From positions 1 to 26,092 of the IMG/VR virus record IMGVR_UViG_3300025652_000467: 26,092 nt of DNA; one strand, given 5' to 3'. The first letter of the stretch is position 1. Each line of letters starts with the position of its first letter. The translations under genes were made by a program, and so were the position numbers. Below the pieces are notes generated by a model. The model had not been told where the DNA came from and searched no databases. It saw nothing but the letters and a program-made list of their open reading frames with translations. Shown here piece by piece: positions 52-26,066 of this stretch. This DNA is from a virus.

Positions 52-507
52 TCACCACCAAGGCTTTAAAATCTTACCATCGTCACCCCTCACACCACAC
101 TTAATTTCTGAGACATACCGTTGATTGATACCTAACAGCTCGCTTATATCCCGCTGCCTCATCCCTTCCTTAAGCAATGCCTTAACAGCCGCTATAGTCT
201 TAGGAGTTACTACCCTATACCTCCTTCCTGCATTGTCCATATCCTTAACATTATCAGCATCTGTACCCACTGATAGGTGTTCAGGATTAATACAAGCCCT
301 ATTGTGGCAGGAATGACGCACAACCCTACCCTCAATATCCAGACCAGATAGACGAGCCACTGCCCTATGCCCGCTGCCTGCCTTACCCATGTCCACAAAT
401 CTAGAATATCCTGCCACAGTTAAACTACCCTGCCACACTAGACATTCCCCCTCCGGTTTAGTTCTTGACATAAAGAATGCCATATCCCTAACAACTGGTT
501 TTCTCAT
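52..507 (-). CDS. Free-standing HNH homing-type endonuclease
   Basis: This 151-residue protein is probably a DNA endonuclease of the phage HNH (HNH_3-like) family, which nicks or cuts DNA and spreads itself between related genomes. Residues about 47-80 hold the motif: His47 opens the fold, then RHSCHNRACINPEHL carries the His/Cys and Asn/His residues of the beta-beta-alpha-metal site. Residues about 101-138 look like a helix-turn-helix (QRDISELLGINQRYVSEIK), the usual DNA-binding tail of this family. I start it at the second Met (507) because GGAG lies 7 nt before that ATG, while the upstream ATG at 519 has no ribosome binding site. It stands alone, not inside an intron that I can see. Twelve-base direct repeats flank it. 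The family call is firm; the target site is unknown. Confidence 0.88.
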   Translation of the reverse strand: MRKPVVRDMAFFMSRTKPEGECLVWQGSLTVAGYSRFVDMGKAGSGHRAVARLSGLDIEGRVVRHSCHNRACINPEHLSVGTDADNVKDMDNAGRRYRVVTPKTIAAVKALLKEGMRQRDISELLGINQRYVSEIKCGVRGDDGKILKPWW

Positions 508-517
508 ACAATTCTCC

Positions 518-529
518 ATTAATGTATAC
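518..529. repeat. 12-bp direct repeat ATTAATGTATAC, copy 2
   Basis: This is the second copy of the repeat at 24-35. It lies just upstream of the chosen HNH start on the minus strand and overlaps the rejected upstream ATG. Confidence 0.55.
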
Positions 530-623
530 AGTAATCATTTACTATACATTATAGAGTACCAAATAATTTAGGAATTAACAACCAAACTAGGGAATTAATC
601 TCAAATTACTCGGTACTTGGCCG

Positions 624-759: not shown

Positions 760-1290
760 TTACGCTGCCTCTTTAATAGCAAGTTGCTCCATTAGTAGTA
801 CTAAGTCAGCTAATGATACGCCACCTTCTAATACCGCGGACAATATAGCTCCACCTTCAATACCTTCTTGGTCGTCAGCTAGAGCCTTCTTAGTTAAGTC
901 AGCTATTTTCTTAGCATATTCTTTAGCCTTAACAGGCGGCTTAACACCTTCCGCTTCGTACCAAGTCCACACTGTATTAGCTTCCACTTCTAAGAACAAT
1001 GCACCCGCTTCAACCTTGTCAGCTAATTTCTTATCGCCCTTGATTTTCTTAGAGAATACACCCGCCGCTTGTTTGAATGGTAGGAATTCTTCAAAGAATT
1101 CTATTGCAGTGCGCTTATTAGCAGGAGTCAACACCTGCAATAGACGGTTTACGGTTGCTATATCGTTAGTGTCATCAATGACAATGTATTGAATCATATC
1201 CCGTGACAACTCACCTAGTACTGTACGTGTAACCTTTTCAGCACCTGCTAGAGCTTCGATTTTCTTGATTAGATCAGCTTGATTTAACAT
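760..1290 (-). CDS. Hypothetical protein, 176 residues, leftward
   Basis: I do not recognise this protein. It is a soluble, mostly helical 176-residue chain with no membrane segment, signal peptide or cysteine cluster. Residues about 70-130 are lysine-rich (KKIKGDKKLADK, then KAKEYAKKIADLTKKAL), and the C-terminal 30 residues are hydrophobic and leucine-rich (LADLVLLMEQLAI). The start is well supported: AAAGG stands 7 nt before the ATG at 1290. It is the first leftward gene next to the long gene-less region, so it is probably read from a promoter around 1340-1370. A short GCAGC/GCTGC inverted repeat (750-768) straddles its stop codon. It belongs to the leftward, presumably earlier, arm; its role is unknown. 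Confidence 0.75.
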   Translation of the reverse strand: MLNQADLIKKIEALAGAEKVTRTVLGELSRDMIQYIVIDDTNDIATVNRLLQVLTPANKRTAIEFFEEFLPFKQAAGVFSKKIKGDKKLADKVEAGALFLEVEANTVWTWYEAEGVKPPVKAKEYAKKIADLTKKALADDQEGIEGGAILSAVLEGGVSLADLVLLMEQLAIKEAA

Positions 1291-2816: not shown

Positions 2817-2875
2817 TTGGTTGAGAATCCTGAAAAAATTTTATACTTATATATATAAGACATTATATAAGACAT
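2817..2875 (+). promoter_or_regulatory. Promoter-like element, copy A (tail fibre unit)
   Basis: The block TTGGTTGAGAATCCTGA, then an AT-rich tract with TATACTTA, then two AGACAT boxes (2858-2863, 2870-2875), recurs upstream of the acetyltransferase gene at 17780-17845 in the same order and nearly the same spacing (41 and 42 nt from the first T to the first AGACAT). Read as a host sigma-70 promoter, TTGAGA (2821-2826) and TACTTA (2844-2849) are 17 nt apart; a phage polymerase or activator site is the alternative. It is about 100-150 nt upstream of the first rightward gene. Confidence 0.6.
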
Positions 2876-2971: not shown

Positions 2972-3529
2972 ATGGCTAAGATAACGATAGATGACATATT
3001 AACACAGTTCGCTTCTAGCCAGTCGATTAACAGTCGATTCCAGCAGATAGAAGATGCCCTGAATGATAAGGTGTTGTACAGGAACAACCCCACCGGTGAA
3101 CCTAACTACATGGTTAGTGACTTCGACATGGCAAACAATGATTTGCTTAATGGTGGGGATGTGTATGTCACAGACCTATACATTGGAGGAGTGAACTGGT
3201 CTGGTCTAGACCCAGCCACCATCCTTGCAGCAGAGGCAGCAGCGGTAGAGTCAGAAGCAAGTGCAGCAGCAGCTCTAGTAAGTGAGAACAATGCAGCAGC
3301 TTCGGAGACAGCAGCCGGTATCAGTGCAGACACGTCACTGACTCAAGCTCAGATAGCGGTAGCAGCAGTATCAACAATACCAATAGGCACGTTAGGGTTC
3401 TTGCCCTTCACAATAGCTTCAGGGGCTTCTAGCCCTATCAGTATACTAGAACCAGCCCCGGGTGTATACACACTGCCCTTCTTCAATGCGGCAGGTGCAG
3501 CTAAAGACATACCAATCTACGGGGTGTAA
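2972..3529 (+). CDS. Tail fibre N-terminal / adaptor protein
   Basis: This 185-residue virion protein probably links a tail fibre to the tail. The N-terminal 75 residues hold a pattern seen at the start of many podoviral fibre proteins (SINSRFQQIEDALNDKVLYR, then DMANNDLLNGGDVYVTDLYI). Residues about 80-125 are almost pure Ala/Glu/Ser and should form a trimeric coiled coil. The last 50 residues are hydrophobic and glycine-rich. It is too short to hold a receptor-binding tip, which the next gene supplies, so fibre and adaptor seem to be split. AGGA stands about 7 nt before the ATG. It is the first gene of the rightward block, behind the promoter-like element and leader hairpin. Confidence 0.65.
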   Translation: MAKITIDDILTQFASSQSINSRFQQIEDALNDKVLYRNNPTGEPNYMVSDFDMANNDLLNGGDVYVTDLYIGGVNWSGLDPATILAAEAAAVESEASAAAALVSENNAAASETAAGISADTSLTQAQIAVAAVSTIPIGTLGFLPFTIASGASSPISILEPAPGVYTLPFFNAAGAAKDIPIYGV

Positions 3530-11611: not shown

Positions 11612-12340
11612 ATGACTGACATGTTTAACGAAGAGAACACTACACCTGCCACTCCACCAGAGGGCGTTGTAGCAACACCATCTCCAACAGAACCTAACCC
11701 AGCAGACCAGCTATTGAAAGGTATTGTTAACGAGACTGGCGAACAGAAGTATGCATCTGTAGACAAAGCATTGGAGGCACTAGCTGCTTCTCAATCGTAC
11801 ATCAAGAAGTTGGAGACTGAGAATTCAGACTACCGAGTGAAGGGTGATAAGGCTACAGCTATGGAAGACATTCTGGCTGCCATAAAAAGTAGAGACAGCG
11901 GCGAACCCGCTCCAGCTCCGGCTGAAGCAACTCCTGCACTTGATCCTACACAGTTAGCCGATATGGTTAACGGCCTGTACAACCAAACTAAAGCTAATGA
12001 AGTGTCTGAAGCTAATCGTAAAGCGGTTATCGAAGCAGCTACAGCTAAGTATGGCGAACAGGTAGGTACTAAATTCTATGAGGAAGCTGCTGCTAAAGGA
12101 TTCGATAAGGAAGACATTAATCGTCTTGCTGCTAAGAACCCTGCTGCCGTATTCAGCCTCTTAAACATTGACGGTAAAAAGGACACCCCTCTAAAATTAG
12201 AGAGTTCAATACGTACTGAAGGATTTCAACAAGCCCCGGCTAAACCTGTTCGTGCTATGGCACATGGGACAACTGGTGACTTGTTAACATCTTGGCGTGC
12301 AACTGTCGCTAAAGTCAATAAAGACTTAGGAATCAATTAA
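11612..12340 (+). CDS. Capsid scaffolding protein
   Basis: A 242-residue protein with the make-up of phage scaffolds: a Pro/Thr/Glu-rich disordered start, a coiled coil around residues 50-95 (SYIKKLETENSDYRVKGDKA, then MEDILAAIKS), a second Pro/Ala linker, further helices, and a basic C-terminal tail (LLTSWRATVAKVNKDLGIN) that would contact capsid protein. Scaffolds co-assemble with capsid protein and leave the head before or during packaging. It lies between portal and major capsid, as T7 gene 9 does. The binding site AAAGG is rather far (about 13 nt) from the ATG at 11612; the Met at 11621 is an alternative start. Confidence 0.85.
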   Translation: MTDMFNEENTTPATPPEGVVATPSPTEPNPADQLLKGIVNETGEQKYASVDKALEALAASQSYIKKLETENSDYRVKGDKATAMEDILAAIKSRDSGEPAPAPAEATPALDPTQLADMVNGLYNQTKANEVSEANRKAVIEAATAKYGEQVGTKFYEEAAAKGFDKEDINRLAAKNPAAVFSLLNIDGKKDTPLKLESSIRTEGFQQAPAKPVRAMAHGTTGDLLTSWRATVAKVNKDLGIN

Positions 12341-15506: not shown

Positions 15507-17766
15507 TACGTTTGTCAAGGGACTTATTACAGAGGCTGGCCCTCTTACGTTCCCTGAGAATGCTTCCTTAGAAGATGTGAACTTTGTACTGAATAGGGAT
15601 GGGAGTCGCCAACGTAGATTTGGTATGGACTTCGAGACGAATTCTGTACAGAAAAGCCTAGGGTATGACGTACTAGCTGCTGATACCACTAACATTAATA
15701 GTGCTGTGTGGAAGAACCCAATAGGAGATGGCTCACTAGACATTGCTGTAGTTCAGGTTAATGACGAACTATTCTTCTTTGACAACAGTGCAGCCTCTAT
15801 ATCCAATGCCCCTCTAAATGGTGGGAGCAGTGTGACGATTTCTAGCCTGTCAGGGAATGATGCTACCTTTGCTTCTATACAAGGTAACTTGCTTGTCACT
15901 AATGGCTCACGCTATCCAAGCCTATTAACATACGACAGTGCCACTCAATTAATATCTTCAGACACAATTACACTACAGACTAGGGACTTGTTTGGGGTTG
16001 ATGACAACTATGCTGTTAATCTGAGATCAGGGTCTCTATCTGTAGCCCACGAGTGGAATCTTAGAAACCAAGGGTGGCCTTCATCGTTCGATTGCGCCAG
16101 ATCAAGAAATGGGGATGGAATAGTCTTCGCAGACCCAGTTAGCTACTCTAAGAGCAAGCAAGGGATATACCCAGCTAATACAGACCTGTTGTGGGCGGCT
16201 ACTATAGATACTGCGAAGGAACCTGAAGCTGTAGGGACATTCTGGCCCGAGGAACTCTATAAGAACCTATTCGGAACAACCCCTGCCCCTAAAGGCAGTG
16301 CTATTTTAGACTTGTTTGAAAGGGGGGCTTCTCGAATATCGCTCAACTTAAACAGATTAACAAACGAAGCATCCCTCCCTCAAGACGAGACATTAGGGAA
16401 TGTCAGCAATGTAGGCTTCTACGCAGGAAGGGTGTTCTACGCTATAACCGAAACAGGACTGACTGGAGGTGACGACAACAGCCCTAAACTTGGTACTATG
16501 ATATTTTATAGCCAAGTGGTAGACAATGTAGATAAGCTCGGTAAGTGTTACCAAGAAGCTGACCCCTCTGCTGAAGACATCAACGACGTTATTGCCACGG
16601 ATGGTGGGTTCATATCTATACCAGAGGCAGGTAAGATATTAACATTGACACCCCTAGGTACAAGCTTATTCGTTATCACTACTAATGGTGTATGGGAAGT
16701 AAGTGGTGGTGAAAAAGGTTTTAGTGCTTCCGAACAGAAGCTGAGCAAGGTAACGAACATTGGTGCCGTATCGGCAAGCTCTGTAGTTGTCAGCGAAAAC
16801 CTACTAAGCTTTTGGTCAGAGAGTGGCATACAGGGTATTCAAATTGATGAGATCAGTTTGGCGGGTAAGGTAGACAACATCACCCAAAGTACCGTACAGG
16901 AGCTGTACGACAACATACCCGTAGCTGCTAAGGTGAACGCAACAGCCGTATATGACTCCGTTGCTAGGCAAGTACGTTGGCTGTATAGGGATAGGACTCT
17001 AGCGAGCAGTGGCTTCTATAACAAAGAACTCATATACGATTTGAACTTACAAGCATTCTATGAGAGTAATGTGGAGGCTGTAAATACAGCATCCGGCCCC
17101 TTCCTATCAGGGTATTTAGACCTACCAAATGCTGTATCTGTTTCAGCAACAGAAGATGTTGTTGTGAATGATGTAGTTGTAACTGCTGACGGTGAGGACG
17201 TAACTGTTACCACAAGAGAGGTGGATGAGGGTATTCGGGCTTCTACGAAGTACCTTACCTTTGATACGACAACCTCCAACACAACCTTTACCTTCTCGTC
17301 ATACTCCAACCTAGACTTTATTGACTGGCTGACATATGACGATGTTGGTATAGACGCTCCTGCTACGCTTCTAACGGGTTATCTTACAGGGGGTGCTGGT
17401 AGTAAGGTTAAACACATAAGCGCTCTTGTGGTGCATCTGAGGAGGACTGAGGAGGGGTTTACGGATACAGGTGACGGGTTTGAGGCTGTTGGCCCTAGTA
17501 GTTGTTTAGTTCAGGCACAATGGCAGTGGACGAATAGCGCTTCATCAGGACGATGGGGTACTGAGTTTCAAGCATATCGTATACCTCGTATGTACGTAAA
17601 CGACAATGTCAATGATCCGTATGACTATGGGTTTAGTGTGATTAGTTCTAAGAACAAGTTGAGAGGAAAAGGAAACGCATTAAGTGTTAAGTTTTCAACT
17701 GAACCTGCTAAGAACTTACACCTATACGGATGGGGTTTAGAAGTGCTAGTAGATCAAAATATGTAA
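15475..17766 (+). CDS. Tail tubular protein B-like nozzle (T7 gp12-like)
   Basis: A 763-residue beta-rich protein that should form the hexameric nozzle at the tail tip. Near the N-terminus it has the family signature: EINTFVKGLITEAGPLTFP, then SLEDVNFVLNRDGSRQRR. Further on are propeller-like stretches such as IPEAGKILTLTPLGTSLFVI with TTNGVWEVSGGEKGFS, and a C-terminus ending in LYGWGLEVLVDQ. Length is close to T7 gp12 (794). I start it at the ATG 15475, with GGAG about 7 nt upstream, not at the GTG 15421. The gene closes this transcription block: 114 nt without coding follow, containing the second promoter-like element. Confidence 0.85.
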   Translation: MPRQKTNLEINTFVKGLITEAGPLTFPENASLEDVNFVLNRDGSRQRRFGMDFETNSVQKSLGYDVLAADTTNINSAVWKNPIGDGSLDIAVVQVNDELFFFDNSAASISNAPLNGGSSVTISSLSGNDATFASIQGNLLVTNGSRYPSLLTYDSATQLISSDTITLQTRDLFGVDDNYAVNLRSGSLSVAHEWNLRNQGWPSSFDCARSRNGDGIVFADPVSYSKSKQGIYPANTDLLWAATIDTAKEPEAVGTFWPEELYKNLFGTTPAPKGSAILDLFERGASRISLNLNRLTNEASLPQDETLGNVSNVGFYAGRVFYAITETGLTGGDDNSPKLGTMIFYSQVVDNVDKLGKCYQEADPSAEDINDVIATDGGFISIPEAGKILTLTPLGTSLFVITTNGVWEVSGGEKGFSASEQKLSKVTNIGAVSASSVVVSENLLSFWSESGIQGIQIDEISLAGKVDNITQSTVQELYDNIPVAAKVNATAVYDSVARQVRWLYRDRTLASSGFYNKELIYDLNLQAFYESNVEAVNTASGPFLSGYLDLPNAVSVSATEDVVVNDVVVTADGEDVTVTTREVDEGIRASTKYLTFDTTTSNTTFTFSSYSNLDFIDWLTYDDVGIDAPATLLTGYLTGGAGSKVKHISALVVHLRRTEEGFTDTGDGFEAVGPSSCLVQAQWQWTNSASSGRWGTEFQAYRIPRMYVNDNVNDPYDYGFSVISSKNKLRGKGNALSVKFSTEPAKNLHLYGWGLEVLVDQNM

Positions 17767-17779
17767 AGATAGTGTAAAG

Positions 17780-17845
17780 TTGGTTGAGTATTCTGATATA
17801 TTTTAGTACTAATAAGTATTTAGACATATTAAAAGTATCAGACAT
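17780..17845 (+). promoter_or_regulatory. Promoter-like element, copy B (ejection protein unit)
   Basis: TTGGTTGAGTATTCTGA, an AT tract with GTACTAA, and two AGACAT boxes (17822-17827, 17840-17845) repeat the layout of 2817-2875. As a sigma-70 promoter it reads TTGAGT (17784-17789), 17 nt, TACTAA (17807-17812). It stands in the only sizeable gap of the late block and points at the acetyltransferase and internal virion genes. Confidence 0.6.
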
Positions 17846-17880
17846 TACTATCTAACTAACATTATAAAGGAATACATAGA

Positions 17881-18336
17881 ATGTATATTATTACTGAAGA
17901 ACCTCTGAAGGATTGTATTGAAGAAATGAAGCCTCTTCTGTTAGAACATTATGAAGAGGTAGCATTTAGGAAGGATAAGATAGCGTTCAATCCTGATTAC
18001 GATAAGTACTTACAACTTGCTGACATAGACATGTTACATCTTGTAAGCGTTCGTAAGGAAGGGGTTCTTGTTGGTTACTACTTATCGTTCATCTCAATCA
18101 ACCCACACTACATGGATCACACATATGCTGCTAATGACGTTTTATACGTTCACGAAGAGCATAGAGGAGGCACTGTAGCTTATCGTATGTTTAAGTATGC
18201 AGAAGAGAAGTTGAAAGAAAAGGGTGTATCAATTATAACAGTACACATGAAAAACAAACTGCCGTTCGACCGCTTGTGTGAAGCTAGGGGTATGGAAGCA
18301 ATTGAAACAATTTATATGAAATATATCGGAGATTGA
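17881..18336 (+). CDS. GNAT-family acetyltransferase
   Basis: A 151-residue protein with the GCN5-related N-acetyltransferase core. The acetyl-CoA loop is in NDVLYVHEEHRGGTVAYRMF (about 85-104): a beta-4 strand, then R95-G-G-T-V-A as the pyrophosphate-binding turn, then helix 3. Strand beta-5 follows as VSIITVHM, and the end reads FDRLCEARGMEAIETIYMKY, the usual closing region. The substrate is unknown; protein or small-molecule amines are both possible. It is the first gene behind the second promoter-like element and holds the place of T7 gene 13, among internal virion genes, so it may be carried in the virion. AAAGGA precedes the ATG. Confidence 0.8.
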   Translation: MYIITEEPLKDCIEEMKPLLLEHYEEVAFRKDKIAFNPDYDKYLQLADIDMLHLVSVRKEGVLVGYYLSFISINPHYMDHTYAANDVLYVHEEHRGGTVAYRMFKYAEEKLKEKGVSIITVHMKNKLPFDRLCEARGMEAIETIYMKYIGD

Positions 18337-18337
18337 T

Positions 18338-18799
18338 ATGTCATTAGGTGGAGTGGGTTGGGCCATTGGTGCTGCTGTCGTTGGTGGAAAGATAGAGCAC
18401 GATGCAGCTAAGAAGCAGGCTAAGAAGACAGAGGAGGCAGCAGAGAAAGTTGCAGAGTCTGAACGTGCAGCAGAAGGTGAGAAAGCTGCGCGTCAACGTA
18501 GACAGCAAGTTAAGCAGGCACGTATAGCTAGGGCTGATATTCAGAACGTAGCTGCCGTTTCAGGACAGTCAGGTGGCTCTGCTGCTATTAGTGGGGCTCA
18601 GAATGTCACAGGGACAGCCGCTAGTAACATTGGTGCTATTAATAAAGCTAAGGCTGGGGCTGATGCCACATCAGGTGCTCAACAGAATCTCTTTGCAGAA
18701 CAGATTGCACCACCATCAAGTAGTGCTGCTGTCGGCGGGTTCTTGAAGAGTAATGCTGGTTCTATAGGTAAAGGTATAGACGCTTTAATTACAAAGTAA
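18338..18799 (+). CDS. Internal virion protein, T7 gp14-like
   Basis: A 153-residue protein matching the small internal core protein that is ejected first and forms a pore in the outer membrane in T7-type phages. It has a short hydrophobic glycine-rich N-terminus (GGVGWAIGAAVVGGK), a long Ala/Lys/Glu helix (residues about 22-65), then the family signature RQRRQQVKQARIARADIQN followed by VAAVSGQSGGSAAISGAQ, and a Gly/Ser/Ala-rich tail. It follows the acetyltransferase by 1 nt with GGAG as binding site, and precedes the giant internal protein by 30 nt. Confidence 0.78.
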   Translation: MSLGGVGWAIGAAVVGGKIEHDAAKKQAKKTEEAAEKVAESERAAEGEKAARQRRQQVKQARIARADIQNVAAVSGQSGGSAAISGAQNVTGTAASNIGAINKAKAGADATSGAQQNLFAEQIAPPSSSAAVGGFLKSNAGSIGKGIDALITK

Positions 18800-18829
18800 A
18801 AACCTAAGGGTACATAACAAGAGAACATT

Positions 18830-21800
18830 ATGGATATATCGGACAATAACGATCAGGCACTAGATAAGGCACTAGATGCTGGGGCTGACATCGAGGACAT
18901 TAACAACTTACGTTCTCGTTCAGGTCTTACACAGTTACAGGAAGTCCAACCGGAAGCAGCACCAGAGGGTGCAGGAGAAGCTCCTGTAAGCTCGCCTGAG
19001 GTTGCTGTCGAGGAACCTATAGTAAGTGCCACTGCTGAGGAGTACGTTGATGAGACGGAAACTGAGGGCACTTCAGAGGTCTATATTGACCCACCACTGC
19101 CTCTCCAGCAAGATGCTGTTAAGAGACGTATAGCATTAGACCAAGCAGCACTGGCTAGTGCAGAAGGAAGAACACCTCGTAACGTATATGAGGAATTAAT
19201 GGCTGCACCTAACGATCCTGATATGTTGACTAAGGAGTTGTTTGAGAACACCAGTAAGGCTATTGACAAGACAGACAGTGCAGTAGATGCTGCTTTAAGT
19301 GGTGGTATTGAGGTAGATGGGCCTGCTGTAGCAGCCACTATTACTGGATTGGCTGAACTGAATGACACAGGAGGAGCATTAGCTAACGCAACATCATATA
19401 TAGAAGCCCTTCCCCAGTCTTCTCTACTATCCGTAGACGAAAAGAAGGATGTGATATTCCATCAATACCTGCGTAACATCGCAGCAGAAGTTGTAGATGA
19501 CATGGGTGTTGGTGATTGGTTTGCAGACATTGGGGGTTACTTCGTACCTCAGGAGAACCTACGTCTATCAGAAGCTGCTAAGGTCATGGGCGTTAACTAC
19601 GAAGAAGCTGACTACCTTGACTACACAGACTTCCTGAGTCGTACTGCTTCTAAATTGAAAGACCTTCCAGATGACATTAGATTTCAGATGATTGAGAATC
19701 TTGTTGATGCTTGGCCTGAGATTCATGGGGATAATAGGTTGGCACTATCTGACTTCCTACAGAACCTTACAGGTGAGTTTGATAGAGATTGGAAACATGT
19801 GGAGAGTGCGTTTGAGCGTGTAGATCAGTTTGGCCTAGGGGTTATGACTCCTTATCAAATAATTAAAGGACTGTTCAAAGCGTCTAGCGCCATGCGTATT
19901 GCTGTTAAGTCTGGAAATATAGAAGGGGCTGCTGACATAGCACAGGCTGCTGCTAAAGGAGAGCTTGCTGGTAACGGAGTAACACCTTTAGAAGGGGCTA
20001 CGTCCATGTTACCTGTAGAGGGCTTAGACGACCTTGTGAAGGGGGCTGACAGTAGCCAAGCAGAGAACATCCGTAAGGTGATGGAAGAGAACAGTGCCTT
20101 CTTAGATGAAGTGGACAGTGTTAACTCCTTCGGTCTATCCCTTACAGAGCAAGAGAAAGCTTACGGAAAAGCAGAAGCTATTCGTGAGATTATAGCAGAA
20201 CCGGGTATGGCTAACATACGTGTAACGAAGACAGGTGACACTACCTTTGATGTTACGTATGAAACAGAAGAACTACTTAACGGTAAGTTCCAAACTGTAG
20301 AGCGTGTAAGACAAGCTAAGGCTGTTGATGTAGACCAGAAGACATTCAATGTTGAATACGACGAACTTACAGATACAGGTACTGTCACTAATACGGTAAC
20401 AAAGAGCTTTCAGATTGACTCTATTAAGGGTTCATCTGAGACTGGTGCTGCTTTCCAAGCTAAAGGTACAGACGGTTTCACAGGAACTATTGGTTTAGGT
20501 TCTGTGTTAAGTCCTAAGGCTAAGTTCTGGAAAGACAGCGATGTCTTAGTGGCTATACCAGAGCAGTTAGGAATGAAGGGTTCTAAGATTAAGGGGCTCT
20601 TCCAAGGTGCTGTAGAGAACACGCTAGGAGGTCTGAAGCCTAAGTCTGTTGAACGTCTAGGTGTTGTGTTAACAGCAGGGGATGACCAAGCTAAAGTGTT
20701 CTCCTTTGCAGAAGCTGTACTATCTAAGGATGGTATTAATGGTGTAAGGCTTACTCCCCAAGAGTTTGAGGGATACGTAGGTATGCGTCAGATCATGGAC
20801 AAGCTTCATGCTGTTAAGAACAAAGAGATTGTAGACACTTGGAGGGCACAAGGCGTTAAGGTGTTAGATTGGTTTGGTGGCACTGCTCCGGTTAAGGACT
20901 ACCCTACTGCTGAAGGTGCTCGTATGGCTTTCCAACAGTCTGTAACTAAGTCTAAACACATAGCTATTGAAGGTGCTGAAGATTCTTTCAGCATACAAGA
21001 CCCTTCCAAGTGGGATGACATAGGTGAGGAGCTGGCTTCTAAGTATGCACAAGGCTATCGTCTAGTTAAGACTAAGGAAGGTAAACTACTCCCTGCTGGA
21101 GAGACTAACGTAGAATGGGCACTTGTCAAAGGTGAACGCTTAGACGAACCTTCTGGCATCGTACTTAGTAAGCGTGAAGGCTACATGCCTAAGATACGTA
21201 CAGACGCTAACTACTTCTTGAAACAAACAGTAGCAACTAAGGTTGGTAGTGAAGAGTTTCCTATGGAGAAGACTGTTCGTTACTTCGATAACCGAGCAGA
21301 TGCTGATGCATACAAACAGATAGTTGACCCTGAAGGTACTGGAGGTTTCGCTGTCAAGGCTGATAGGGAATTTACTCCGTCACAATTAGCTGATGAATAC
21401 GTTAACATATCTGGTGGCTTGTTCACTGGTGGACGTAAGAGTGAAGATATACCTTTCGGCTTAGATGGTGCTAAGGGTAAGCGTATGGATAGCCTGACAG
21501 CTATGCAGCGTTACGTTGATAACATCGCTCGTACAACGCCTATGAGCTTGTACAGGGTAGGTGTAGAGGCTAGGTGGTTGCAACATGCTAAGGACTTAGG
21601 GGCTATCTCTAAGAACTACACAGGCAGCTATGCATCTGCATTGGACGATGGTGTATTTGATTCTCACCATGCATCTGCTGGGTTCTTGAGAGAGAGTCAC
21701 GATCAGATAAGCTTTGTTAATGGCATACCAACTTCTTCTGAGAAACTAATGGACATCAAGCTGAGAGCTATGGCTAACGGTTTAGATGAGATAAAGTTCT

Positions 21801-23488
21801 TTGGTAAGAAACCTTTTGCAGCGCTATCGAGACAGTTACACGATACTTCTGTTGAAGGTATGACAGGTAATATGAGGGGAGCAGCTTTCCATCTTATGTT
21901 AGGAATGTATAACCCTGCACAGTTGGCTATTCAGGCTTCTGGTTCTTTAGTGGCACTATCCGTTAATCCTTTACACGGCGGTAAGGGTATAGGACAGACA
22001 CTAGGCTACGCTGTAGCTGATCTAATTACAGGAAGTCCAGAGTCTAGGCGTAAGCTCATACAAAATATGAGGGATCAGGGTTATGATGTGGATGGCTACG
22101 AGATGTGGGAGAAGAGTGGGATGCGTGAGAACGTGGTCAACTCCAACTTAGATTACAGTAGCTTGTGGTCAGACAGACCTTATGACGCTGGTGTGTTCCG
22201 TAAACTGTTAGGTAATGGTGACATGTTCTTCAAATCAGGAGAGCTATTCAACAGCCGTGTATCGTTTGCTACAGCATACAATTGGTTCAAGGCTGAGAAT
22301 GGTGGACGTAAGGTTCTGGATAGTGACATGCAAGCCATCTTAACTAGGGCTGAAGAGTATAGGTTGAACATGACCCGTGCTAACTCCGCTAAGTTTCAGA
22401 CTGGTTTGTCCAGTGTACCTTTACAGTTCCAACAAGTGAACACTAAGTTCATTGAGAAACTCCTACCTAAGAGCAGCTTTGGCACTCAAGAGAAATTGAG
22501 ACTGGCTGCTGGTCAGGTAGCGTTATTTGGAACTGCTGGTGTCCCATTGGTAGGTTCGTTAATGCCTATCGTGTTAGATGCTGCTGGTATCAACATGGAA
22601 AACTTTGAACCTGAACAGCTTAACAAGATGCGTAATGGGGTGTTAGCTTACGTCTTACAGGATTACATGGACATCGAGAGTGTTATCACCGGACGTATGA
22701 CTTTAGGTAGTGACATTGTAGAGAATGCCTTTGGACTGTATAACAATTCCATATCACTTCCTGAAGTAGCTATGGGGCCATTTCATTCGGTGTGGGACAA
22801 GCTTAACCCTACACCACTACTTCCGGGTGTACATGGGAGTGCTAATAACTTCTTTGAAAAGGTTATGACCATCACCAGTACAGTTGCTCATGGAGAAGAC
22901 TTCACTATAACAGAACATGCTCAAGTGGCTAAGCTGTTAGCAGAGAGTGTCTTGCAGATTCCGAGTAGTGGTAGTAACTTAGTACGTGCCAACTACATGT
23001 ACCATTCCAAGTTCTACAAGAACAAGAACGGTAAGTCCATATTTGAGTGGGGAGAGAAGAACTTACAGACGGTTATTGTGTCTGGTTTAGGGTTCTCTCC
23101 ACAAGAAACTCAGGATTGGTTTGAACTTTCAATGACTCCGGGTGGTGTTAAACCTGCCGAGAAGAAGGTTGAAGCTAAGAGGATTGCTTGGTTGTTGTCT
23201 CGTATGGAAGATACCTCCGATGCTACACAGCAGAAGATGATTGCTGCTTCGATCAATGCCATTTCCCATACGTATGAGAAGGGTAAGGATCGTATGGAGA
23301 TATGGGATCACGTGCATACCTTACTGAAAGAGCCTGAAGATTCTTGGGAGAAACTCCTTAAGACTGCTGTGGAGGAGTCCGAGAGTGACCTACGTGATGG
23401 CCTTGGTGCGATACTGAAGAACTCAAGATTCCGTACTAATCCAGATGCGGCTAGACGATTACAAGAAATGGGAATAGGAAAACAATAA
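18830..23488 (+). CDS. Giant internal virion (ejection) protein, gp16-like
   Basis: At 1552 residues this is the largest gene here. It resembles the large ejected core protein of T7-type phages (T7 gp16, 1318 residues), which spans the cell envelope and pulls in DNA. The N-terminal 110 residues are acidic and disordered. The middle is long and helical. The C-terminal third carries hydrophobic stretches (FHLMLGMYNPAQLAIQASGS; QVALFGTAGVPLVGSLMPIV) and the segment ANSAKFQTGLSSVPLQFQQV that I associate with gp16-like C-termini. T7 gp16 has an N-terminal lytic transglycosylase; I see no such Glu-containing motif here, so the wall-cutting job may be elsewhere. The stop overlaps the next ATG (TAATG). 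Confidence 0.7.
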   Translation: MDISDNNDQALDKALDAGADIEDINNLRSRSGLTQLQEVQPEAAPEGAGEAPVSSPEVAVEEPIVSATAEEYVDETETEGTSEVYIDPPLPLQQDAVKRRIALDQAALASAEGRTPRNVYEELMAAPNDPDMLTKELFENTSKAIDKTDSAVDAALSGGIEVDGPAVAATITGLAELNDTGGALANATSYIEALPQSSLLSVDEKKDVIFHQYLRNIAAEVVDDMGVGDWFADIGGYFVPQENLRLSEAAKVMGVNYEEADYLDYTDFLSRTASKLKDLPDDIRFQMIENLVDAWPEIHGDNRLALSDFLQNLTGEFDRDWKHVESAFERVDQFGLGVMTPYQIIKGLFKASSAMRIAVKSGNIEGAADIAQAAAKGELAGNGVTPLEGATSMLPVEGLDDLVKGADSSQAENIRKVMEENSAFLDEVDSVNSFGLSLTEQEKAYGKAEAIREIIAEPGMANIRVTKTGDTTFDVTYETEELLNGKFQTVERVRQAKAVDVDQKTFNVEYDELTDTGTVTNTVTKSFQIDSIKGSSETGAAFQAKGTDGFTGTIGLGSVLSPKAKFWKDSDVLVAIPEQLGMKGSKIKGLFQGAVENTLGGLKPKSVERLGVVLTAGDDQAKVFSFAEAVLSKDGINGVRLTPQEFEGYVGMRQIMDKLHAVKNKEIVDTWRAQGVKVLDWFGGTAPVKDYPTAEGARMAFQQSVTKSKHIAIEGAEDSFSIQDPSKWDDIGEELASKYAQGYRLVKTKEGKLLPAGETNVEWALVKGERLDEPSGIVLSKREGYMPKIRTDANYFLKQTVATKVGSEEFPMEKTVRYFDNRADADAYKQIVDPEGTGGFAVKADREFTPSQLADEYVNISGGLFTGGRKSEDIPFGLDGAKGKRMDSLTAMQRYVDNIARTTPMSLYRVGVEARWLQHAKDLGAISKNYTGSYASALDDGVFDSHHASAGFLRESHDQISFVNGIPTSSEKLMDIKLRAMANGLDEIKFFGKKPFAALSRQLHDTSVEGMTGNMRGAAFHLMLGMYNPAQLAIQASGSLVALSVNPLHGGKGIGQTLGYAVADLITGSPESRRKLIQNMRDQGYDVDGYEMWEKSGMRENVVNSNLDYSSLWSDRPYDAGVFRKLLGNGDMFFKSGELFNSRVSFATAYNWFKAENGGRKVLDSDMQAILTRAEEYRLNMTRANSAKFQTGLSSVPLQFQQVNTKFIEKLLPKSSFGTQEKLRLAAGQVALFGTAGVPLVGSLMPIVLDAAGINMENFEPEQLNKMRNGVLAYVLQDYMDIESVITGRMTLGSDIVENAFGLYNNSISLPEVAMGPFHSVWDKLNPTPLLPGVHGSANNFFEKVMTITSTVAHGEDFTITEHAQVAKLLAESVLQIPSSGSNLVRANYMYHSKFYKNKNGKSIFEWGEKNLQTVIVSGLGFSPQETQDWFELSMTPGGVKPAEKKVEAKRIAWLLSRMEDTSDATQQKMIAASINAISHTYEKGKDRMEIWDHVHTLLKEPEDSWEKLLKTAVEESESDLRDGLGAILKNSRFRTNPDAARRLQEMGIGKQ

Positions 23489-25596
23489 TGGCTAGTTTTA
23501 AAAGAGACGTAGCAGACCCCAACTTATCCTTCTCTGGAGGCAGTACCCCTCGGGGTGGTGGCTCTCGGGGGCCAAGTTCCACCAGTGCAGGTCTGGAGGT
23601 CTTGGGTCAGGTGGCTAAGATTGGTATGGAGGCTTACGGTGCTAAGAAGGCTACTAAGGCTGGGGAAGAGATTAGTGGTCAGAATGAGACACATGTTGAG
23701 GCGGGTAAGGCTGTACAAGAAGCCACAATGCTTCAGGGTATGTTTGAGGATGACACTAAGTTAAATCAAGGCAGACCTCCTACTAAGAATGAACTAAATG
23801 ACTTCAGGGATGAAACCTTTGGTAATCTTCTTACTAACCAGAAGCGTATACAACAAGCTGTAGAGGCAGGTGCAATATCTAGTTCGGAAGGTAATGCTCG
23901 ACTCGGTAAGTTAAGAGCAGAGGCTCTGTCTAATCCTCTGACCGCAGCACACCAAGACAAGCTGGATAACATACTATTCAAGTCTACAGGGGGAGCAGCC
24001 CCTTCTAACGGACTTATCACATCAACACCTTATGAGCAGCAACAGGCTAGAGAGGCAGAGAACAGAGCAGCAGGTGAGGCTCAATTGATGGTAGCTTCTG
24101 AATCTCTATTACAGTCAGGTGTAGTTCCTAGTATAAGTGCTGCTAAGACTCTTATAGGTCAGTCCCAGCAGGCTAAGCTACAGAAGAGCGTGTTGGATAC
24201 TAAACGTCTTAATAAGACTATGAATAGTGAGGATGCGTTTTCTTCTCAACAGTTGAACTTAGAAGACTACTCTGTTGAAGGTTATAAAGCTGTACAGACA
24301 TGGTTAACTGCTGGAGGTAATGCAGCAGATCAGGATGGCCTAGTGGCTAACCTAGACCTGTTACATAGAACCGCTTTGTCCGACCTACGTAAGAATGCAC
24401 CGTTTATGACTCCGGGAAACTTCACTACTGCTGAGAAACAGCTTACCACACAGCAAGCTTCTCTAAACACGTTGATGAAGGATCGTTCTGCTACTGAGAA
24501 CATAACTAAGGTGTTCAACGAAGTCCAAGTTAAGATGGACAGACAGAACCAGAAGTTTGAACTCAAGCTTACACAAGCACTACCCTACCTCCAAGCTTAC
24601 AACAAGTATGGTGGACAGGAAGGTGTTGGCTTCTACATGCGATTAGCTACTAACGACAATCAAATGTCAGACAAAGTGTTAGAGCATATGTCCCCTATTA
24701 TGCGTACACTTAAGAAGCTGGATATGGATGCTAGAGCCGTATTTACTGGTCAGCAGTTTGAGACGTTTGAAGACCCCACTGTACTCCAACTCCCTGCGGA
24801 CACTAAGGCTTACTTCGGAGAGATACTGACACAGCAAGGTGGTTTCAAGGTGTTGTTGGGTAGGTTGGAAGATCAGCCTGAAGACACCATACGTAAGGTG
24901 GGACAGTCTGACATGAATCTACGGTCTATTGTGAATAGCCGTGAGTGGATGAACCTGTCTAATACAGATCAAGGCAAGGAGTTGATACGTGCCTCTGTGA
25001 AGGGTGGAGCTTCTAGTGCGAAGGTTAGTACTATAGGCCAGTTCGGAACTGTACCCTCTAAGGTGAGTGTTACACAACGTGACAAACAGGTTGGAGGTAA
25101 GACAGAGGGGACACCTTTCACTATTGATACCTTCGGTGTAGAGACTAGCGCCACGTATAAACAACAAGTGGTGTCTGCATATCAACTGGCTAAGATAAAG
25201 CCTGAGTTATGGCAGAATGAGTATGATAACATTGACGAATACCTAACCGCTAACTTCGCAATTGGAGGCGCTCAAGCGGAAACTCCGCCCCCTTTTGAGG
25301 CAAGGGCTGAACGCCCACAAGACTTCCCTTTCATAGATAATGGTAACGGTTCAATCTCTACACACCGTATGGCCGCAGAGGTAGACGAGGATGGTAACTG
25401 GAGAGCGTTCCCTACTATCGTACAGATGCCGAATGGTACATTGAAGGAGTTTGAAGATGTACGTGAAGCTGAAAGGTACAATAAGTCTATAGGCAATACT
25501 AAGGAGTTTGGTAAGGATAAAGCCGCTGCACTTAAATATGCAGAGGGTGGATATAAACCTAAACAGCTAAAAGACTTCGGTAAGGGTAGGAAATAA
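23488..25596 (+). CDS. Internal/structural virion protein with C-terminal module
   Basis: A 702-residue protein. The first 35 residues are Gly/Ser/Arg-rich and disordered (SFSGGSTPRGGGSRGPSSTS). Most of the rest is helical and Gln/Lys/Glu-rich, as in the middle-sized ejection protein (T7 gp15, 747 residues). The last 90 residues are different: a compact module with PFIDNGNGSISTHRMAAEVD, then WRAFPTIVQMPNG and a helical tail AERYNKSIGNTKEFG. That module recurs at the ends of phage structural proteins, with unknown function. It is coupled to its neighbours on both sides (TAATG). The order large-then-middle is the reverse of T7. The ejection role is inferred from size and position. Confidence 0.6.
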   Translation: MASFKRDVADPNLSFSGGSTPRGGGSRGPSSTSAGLEVLGQVAKIGMEAYGAKKATKAGEEISGQNETHVEAGKAVQEATMLQGMFEDDTKLNQGRPPTKNELNDFRDETFGNLLTNQKRIQQAVEAGAISSSEGNARLGKLRAEALSNPLTAAHQDKLDNILFKSTGGAAPSNGLITSTPYEQQQAREAENRAAGEAQLMVASESLLQSGVVPSISAAKTLIGQSQQAKLQKSVLDTKRLNKTMNSEDAFSSQQLNLEDYSVEGYKAVQTWLTAGGNAADQDGLVANLDLLHRTALSDLRKNAPFMTPGNFTTAEKQLTTQQASLNTLMKDRSATENITKVFNEVQVKMDRQNQKFELKLTQALPYLQAYNKYGGQEGVGFYMRLATNDNQMSDKVLEHMSPIMRTLKKLDMDARAVFTGQQFETFEDPTVLQLPADTKAYFGEILTQQGGFKVLLGRLEDQPEDTIRKVGQSDMNLRSIVNSREWMNLSNTDQGKELIRASVKGGASSAKVSTIGQFGTVPSKVSVTQRDKQVGGKTEGTPFTIDTFGVETSATYKQQVVSAYQLAKIKPELWQNEYDNIDEYLTANFAIGGAQAETPPPFEARAERPQDFPFIDNGNGSISTHRMAAEVDEDGNWRAFPTIVQMPNGTLKEFEDVREAERYNKSIGNTKEFGKDKAAALKYAEGGYKPKQLKDFGKGRK

Positions 25597-26066
25597 TGTA
25601 TCAATGTAAACACTTTGACATACGTGAACTAGTATCCCCCATAGCGTATAGGGACAGGGGTGGTAGATGTTGGGAGTTGTTAGACGATAGGATGTTGAAG
25701 GAGCTTGACTACATACGTGAGACCTTTGGCCCTACAGTGATAAACACTTGGCATTCTAAAGCCCTAACAGAAGCTTATGGCTTCCGTAGGTATTCAGGAC
25801 TCCGAACTATGGACTTTTGGGTTAAACCAACTATGTCTGCTTCGGAGAATGCTGAGGCTATAGAGAAGTACAATCGCTCCTACAGCCAACACAAGTATGG
25901 TAGGGCATTTGATTGTCTGTTCAGAGATCATGTCGTAGCGGCTGTTAGAGAGCGTATCAAGGAGTCTCCTGCGTTACACAAGGGAATCACTGCGATAGAG
26001 GAAGGGGTGAGTTGGTTACATATTGACTCACGCAATGTTGAGCAGTATAAATTGTTCTATCCGTAA
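25596..26066 (+). CDS. M15-family peptidase (endolysin-type or virion muralytic)
   Basis: A 156-residue zinc peptidase of the M15 (VanY/L-Ala-D-Glu endopeptidase) type that cleaves peptidoglycan cross-bridges or stem peptides. Metal ligands are visible: His99 and Asp106 in SQHKYGRAFD, and His142 in WLHID near the C-terminus, with Glu136 as possible catalytic base. There is no signal peptide or wall-binding domain, so export would need a holin, or the protein could be carried in the virion. It starts in the stop of the preceding structural gene (TAATG), and another gene with a strong AAGGAG begins 9 nt after it. Endolysin is the likelier reading. Confidence 0.82.
   Translation: MYQCKHFDIRELVSPIAYRDRGGRCWELLDDRMLKELDYIRETFGPTVINTWHSKALTEAYGFRRYSGLRTMDFWVKPTMSASENAEAIEKYNRSYSQHKYGRAFDCLFRDHVVAAVRERIKESPALHKGITAIEEGVSWLHIDSRNVEQYKLFYP

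Follow-up and report, generated by a model that had tools for sequence, protein, structure and literature searches.

Two copies of a composite promoter-like element, A and B, that precede late genes in a 26,092-base virus record (the whole stretch analysed, hereafter the window) are most likely a phage-specific late promoter. In the reading we consider probable, the host RNA polymerase would use A and B as late promoters once it carried an ECF-type sigma factor made by the phage, and would probably use a third site, C, as a weaker promoter of this class; the specificity of such sigma factors would change quickly from phage to phage. We infer promoter function, the start sites and the possession of such a sigma by the window phage; for this phage the phage-sigma mechanism is a well-motivated proposal.

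The window is a genome fragment from which the replication arm is absent. Its terminase, portal, capsid, tube and internal virion proteins and its gene order group it with the Zobellviridae (ICP2, CVT22, CW02 and others), and virion genes and gene order together indicate that it is a fragment from an uncultured, Zobellviridae-like podophage.

Composite elements of the window

The features referred to below are as follows.

52-519, minus strand: HNH endonuclease gene that lies downstream of copy C and whose product has a helix-turn-helix at its C-terminal end
555-585, minus strand: copy C, TTGGTTG-N20-TACT, weaker and without an AGACAT box, read leftward from 585 in the gap 520-759
760-1290, minus strand: leftward gene for a 176-aa protein, adjoining the late leader
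2817-2875, plus strand: copy A, the composite promoter-like element of the late leader, situated 97 nt upstream of the first late gene
2817-2833, plus strand: upstream or -35-like box of copy A, TTGGTTGAGAATCCTGA, the same as copy B at 15 of 17 positions; its TTGGTTG is also in copy C
2844-2849, plus strand: -10-like box of copy A, TACTTA, overlapping TATACT at 2842-2847
2858-2863, plus strand: first AGACAT box of copy A, at +41 from the first base, predicted to lie at or just past the transcription start
2870-2875, plus strand: second AGACAT box of copy A, forming with the first a tandem 12-bp repeat, TATATAAGACAT
2972-3529, plus strand: first late gene past copy A, with a tail-fibre-like N-terminal region
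17780-17845, plus strand: copy B, the second composite promoter-like element, located in the 114-nt gap that follows the tail-tube (tail appendage) gene
17780-17796, plus strand: upstream or -35-like box of copy B, TTGGTTGAGTATTCTGA
17807-17812, plus strand: -10-like box of copy B, TACTAA
17822-17827, plus strand: first AGACAT box of copy B, at +42 from the first base
17840-17845, plus strand: second AGACAT box of copy B
17881-18336, plus strand: GNAT acetyltransferase gene, the first after copy B
18338-26066: genes beyond the GNAT gene, among them those for an internal virion protein and an endolysin

Copies A and B had been noticed in a first-pass annotation of the sequence, whose coordinates and letters proved correct on re-reading. 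As it stated, the two copies occupy the only large non-coding gaps before rightward genes (1291-2971 and 17767-17880), and the first AGACAT, found at 2858 in A and at 17822 in B, lies 41 and 42 nt from the first base. Both copies have TTGGTTGAG-W-AT-Y-CTGA, then TTTTA, then TACTWA 27 nt from the first base, and 30 of their first 40 positions are identical. By itself the AGACAT hexamer is frequent, with 20 occurrences on the plus strand of the window, and the boxes therefore carry weight only in context.

The repeat itself is real. A gapped local alignment of the A gap with the B gap scores 39, a value reached by none of 1000 dinucleotide shuffles and then by one of 6000. No other intergenic pair in the window scores as high as A/B, and the maximum over 25 shuffled intergenic sets was 33. 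The first-pass annotation had also raised the case of a motif occurring randomly within coding regions; a scan of the window found no coding occurrence at the strength of A and B.

Copy C, absent from that annotation, was found by scanning the window with the positions common to A and B. In its first 31 nt it matches 19 of 24 consensus positions, compared with 16 for the next best site in the window and 18 for the best in 17 related genomes. The spacing TTGGTTG-N20-TACT, with TACT at index 27, is the same in A, B and C, and its simulated expectation is 0.03 per window. An unseeded EM search of the window's intergenic gaps returned A, B and C as its top three sites, each lying between genes and oriented like the gene it precedes. 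To this three-site core A and B add AT-Y-CTGA and the AGACAT boxes. Because copy C has both boxes but no AGACAT, the comparison suggests that TTGGTTG plus TACT is the functional core, and that the remaining identity of A and B is a common extra feature or reflects recent common descent. The description of the element as fronting late gene blocks thus holds for A and B, while its restriction to late genes does not, as the gene that the weaker copy C precedes is a leftward, early-side one.

Several other features of these regions were observed. ATTAATGTATAC occurs twice on the plus strand, at 24-35 and 518-530; read on the minus strand it is GTATACATTAAT, which stands just before the HNH start codon and before a possible further leftward start at the edge of the window. 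At about 550 the minus strand has TAATGTATA, the phiEco32 consensus, probably by chance. Positions 1291-2971 form about 1.7 kb of divergent control region without a convincing gene, in which TATAAGACAT also occurs at about 2334-2343. The leftward gene for the 176-aa protein, which has no Pfam or PHROGs family match, adjoins the late leader also in T5S1, G022, CW02, G020, G021 and CVT22. A further conserved element, at 2571-2640 on the plus strand of the window, is found about 200-400 nt before the first late gene in many Zobellviridae, including L125, L134, L135, L136, L172, L162, L115 and others. It consists of G-runs (GGGGG..GGGG), TGCAT and then AAATTTCTAnnAnAAATTATG with an inverted repeat, is in tandem in L115 and L100, and is perhaps a packaging (cos) site or an origin.

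Counterparts and sigma factors in related phages

Two contigs (L044 and L045) carry terminases about 80% identical to that of the window, and neither extends as far as the sites. Across the late module, G022 (47,975 bases; loci L119 and L160-L162) is clearly the closest of 17 genomes compared, with a summed score of 4055 against 2979 for the next. No closer relative emerged when the tube, fibre, internal-virion and 176-aa proteins were used as queries. G001 was at first taken as the closest from its acetyltransferase and was set aside, the late module ranking it the most distant of the 17.

The exact A/B motif was found in no relative, and a scan of the relatives with mismatches allowed gave nothing convincing. 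An exact 17-mer scan of viral contigs gave 39 matches, none of which has the rest of the element, and hence there is no conserved motif in those contigs. Searches of the A and B gaps against phages with blastn returned chance-level matches only. An EM motif search on the relatives found no clear motif; pairwise alignment of intergenic regions did succeed.

In G022, GTTAGA-N15-TATTAT is the most repeated 6-N15-6 dyad, with four exact copies: one in the gap after the tail-tube gene (11882), one in the late leader (42195), an intergenic one in the control region (39283) that is oriented against its neighbouring genes, and one within a coding region (33613, minus strand). Only a single exact match (in T2S2) was found in the other genomes scanned. 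The copies at 11882 and 39283 have about 70 nt in common, with a score of 70 against a maximum of 35 for shuffles, and this shared stretch contains a downstream box, TCTAAGTAGTAGTCCAG, that is the counterpart of AGACAT; the late-leader copy aligned alone with the tail-tube-gap copy gives p = 0.06. Similarly, the late leader of L105 and the tail-tube gap of L123 have in common a 52-bp composite, TTCAGG-AT-TTCCT...CTTATTATA, with a score of 48 and a shuffle maximum of 31. A gap after the tube gene, absent from most annotated Zobellviridae examined, is present in G022, L123, L113 and the window.

Relatives thus have composite elements of the same layout at the same places with other letters. Direct alignment of A or B with the elements of G022 or L123 is not significant. 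Such a failure of the letters to align is expected if sigma specificity drifts, and it means that the link between the window and G022 rests on place and layout.

Longer repeats were also observed, in CVT22 (6362+, 44135+, 23280-), CW02 (34040-, 46129-), T2S2 (40159-, 3699-), T5S1 (19811+, 9833+) and T4S1 (42404-, 5585-), with a similar one in G022 (39273+). Their scores are well clear of those of shuffles, with weaker evidence from T4S1, whose sequence is very AT-rich. One copy occupies the gap that precedes the scaffold gene; another is located some 3-5 kb inside the early arm and points in the late direction, antisense to the early genes.

Sigma factors are annotated near the primase/helicase and DNA polymerase genes of CVT22, CW02, T2S2 and T4S1. 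A search with phrog_1740 also matches G001, G019, G020, G021 and G007 and, weakly, G002 and G022; it found no sigma in ICP2, GX1, VP41s3 or T5S1, and sigma use is therefore not universal in the family. The ICP2 proteins between primase and helicase were tried as sigma candidates and rejected on testing. No sigma gene was matched in the 26-kb window, the replication arm, where relatives keep theirs, being outside the fragment. The sigma-like ORF of G022 (165 aa) is between primase/helicase and DNA polymerase and has ECF family matches of 7e-7 to 2e-5 (TIGR02937, 2.3e-5); on Pfam it is weak, with region 2 only and below cut-off. With a profile built from six such sigma proteins, ECF sigma factors of solved structure are retrieved at about 1e-18.

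The sigma of G001 has strong regions 2 and 4, from which a two-box promoter is expected. The late-leader element of G001, TTTTTGAAACTT...TGTATACT, recurs directly upstream of its own ECF sigma gene (15574-15650, minus strand; 26061-26129, plus strand), and the leader element of G007 likewise recurs upstream of its own sigma gene, which suggests an autoregulated ECF sigma in both. Within the G001 element, TTGAAACTT..TGTATACT resembles an ECF -35.

Candidate readers of the element

Given that relatives have different elements at the same places together with sigma factors of their own, the window element is most likely a phage-sigma late promoter. Under the mechanism proposed, a phage ECF-type sigma made from early/middle genes would redirect the host core RNA polymerase. 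The sigma holoenzyme would recognise the upstream box TTGGTTG(AGWATYCTGA) and the -10-like TACT(WA) 20 nt further on, and transcription would start about 7-10 nt downstream of the -10-like box, at or beside the first AGACAT, placing the AGACAT boxes in the first transcribed bases. From the late leader, copy A would drive the head and tail genes; copy B would re-initiate after the tail-tube gene, boosting expression of internal virion, other virion and lysis genes; and copy C would serve the leftward gene as a weaker promoter of the same class.

The first-pass annotation had read TTGAGW, a 17-nt spacer and TACTWA as a weak sigma-70 promoter. Both copies fail a scan for such promoters: with -35/-10 hexamers at 16-18 nt spacing and at least 9 of 12 matches, no site is found at A, B or C. 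It is conceivable, if somewhat unlikely, that A and B are host sigma-70 late promoters that need a phage activator at TTGGTTGAG-ATYCTGA, in the manner of the middle/late activators of other phages. The 17-nt spacing of TTGAGW and TACTWA and the TATACT within copy A would fit such an arrangement, and the late leader of some relatives without a sigma match has a textbook sigma-70 promoter (in L082, TTGACA and then TTATAAT). However, besides the failed scan, the -10-like box of copy B is poor, the TATAAT of copy C is offset, and what stays constant in all three copies is TTGGTTG with TACT, not a sigma-70 -10.

The identity of A and B extends over about 55 nt, longer than a two-box promoter needs, and the AGACAT boxes would be in the transcript. 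Instead of a dedicated promoter class, this could point mainly to a recent duplication, to a binding site for a protein, or to an element acting at the RNA level (a leader RNA, or a signal for processing or translation). CVT22, CW02, T2S2 and T5S1 have long repeats (42-104 nt) with second copies that do not precede a gene in the sense orientation, which points the same way. We nevertheless hold this to be distinctly improbable, as copy C keeps just two separated boxes at a fixed spacing, as expected of protein-DNA contacts, G022 has the same two-box pattern at a fixed spacing, and Rfam searches, as well as tRNA searches, of the window gave no match.

Use of the element by a phage RNA polymerase, as the first-pass annotation also envisaged, is unlikely, and promoters for a T7-type single-subunit enzyme have only a slight probability. 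In length, the uninterrupted and highly conserved 17-bp block is similar to such promoters; copy C breaks it, and no single-subunit RNA polymerase (RNA_pol, PF00940) was matched in 19 relatives, with T7 as positive control detected at 1e-109 and with the window's own genome incomplete. Finally, although the A and B gaps are both AT-rich, a chance likeness between them has a next to negligible probability, being very unlikely by the shuffle tests and also opposed by the three-site spacing and the parallel elements in relatives.

A phage late promoter distinct from ordinary sigma-70 sites, as the annotation proposed, is thus the best reading, with comparative support from the same-layout elements at the same places. 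An ECF-type sigma, at which it hinted only as something to check, is a likelier agent than the phage RNA polymerase that it named.

Known phage-sigma promoters and the Zobellviridae

To the Zobellviridae belong the cholera phage ICP2 and numerous phages of marine origin. The literature searched yielded no account of their late promoters. Phage-sigma late promoters are known as a kind; the window instance and, in that literature, any for the Zobellviridae appear undescribed. How these phages switch to late transcription would have a testable answer in an ECF sigma of the phage and the composite promoters that belong to it. Their sigma-promoter pairs would form a natural series in which specificity diverged while genome positions stayed, and such promoters can be revealed when intergenic gaps are compared by place as well as by sequence.

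More tentatively, Zobellviridae genera may hold their late promoters at constant places, namely in the late leader, upstream of the sigma gene, and in a late gap that either follows the tube gene or precedes the scaffold gene, with a recognised sequence that changes in step with a fast-evolving phage ECF sigma. In several genera an additional copy, pointing in the late direction, may lie some 3-5 kb inside the early arm; late transcription from it would be antisense to the early genes and would turn them off. We regard this broader scheme as possible and put it forward with reserve.

Among known systems, Salmonella phage 7-11 has the sigma SaPh711_gp47, which acts with the host core polymerase at late promoters GTAAtg-(16)-aCTA, and phiEco32 uses the sigma gp36 at tAATGTAtA (PMC8948821). 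An earlier bioinformatic prediction for 7-11, made by pairwise intergenic alignment, gave a motif resembling that of phiEco32 (PMC4331800), to which the experimentally mapped promoters are dissimilar (PMC8948821 versus PMC4331800). This mismatch calls for caution on motif letters inferred by pairwise intergenic alignment.

A and B form a repeated non-sigma-70 motif upstream of late genes at fixed spacing. They contain neither GTAAtg-16-aCTA nor tAATGTAtA, so that specificity differs; the consensus letters of 7-11 or phiEco32 are not required for membership of the class, its two founding members themselves being different. Like A and B, the late promoters of 7-11 are bipartite, non-sigma-70, few in number and located before late virion genes; their -10 part, aCTA, resembles the TACTWA of the window, and the 7-11 sigma has regions 2 and 4. 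The boxes and spacing differ (GTAAtg-16-aCTA against TTGGTTG-20-TACT), and A and B add further conserved boxes. Two elements of CW02 fit GTAGAG-N16-ACTA, close to 7-11. The middle/late promoters of phiEco32 likewise depend on a phage sigma with the host core polymerase, in a genome whose early and late arms are oppositely transcribed, but they consist of the single element tAATGTAtA with no -35 box.

Bacterial ECF promoters of the SigE/SigW type are matched by G001 in that its sigma gene is apparently under its own promoter, whereas the TTGGTTGAG of the window is not the usual GGAAC-type -35. With the other Zobellviridae (ICP2, CVT22, CW02 and oyster phages) the window has in common the order of terminase, portal, capsid, tube and internal virion genes and the divergent early and late arms, and several members have a sigma gene; the sequences of the elements, in contrast, vary from phage to phage.
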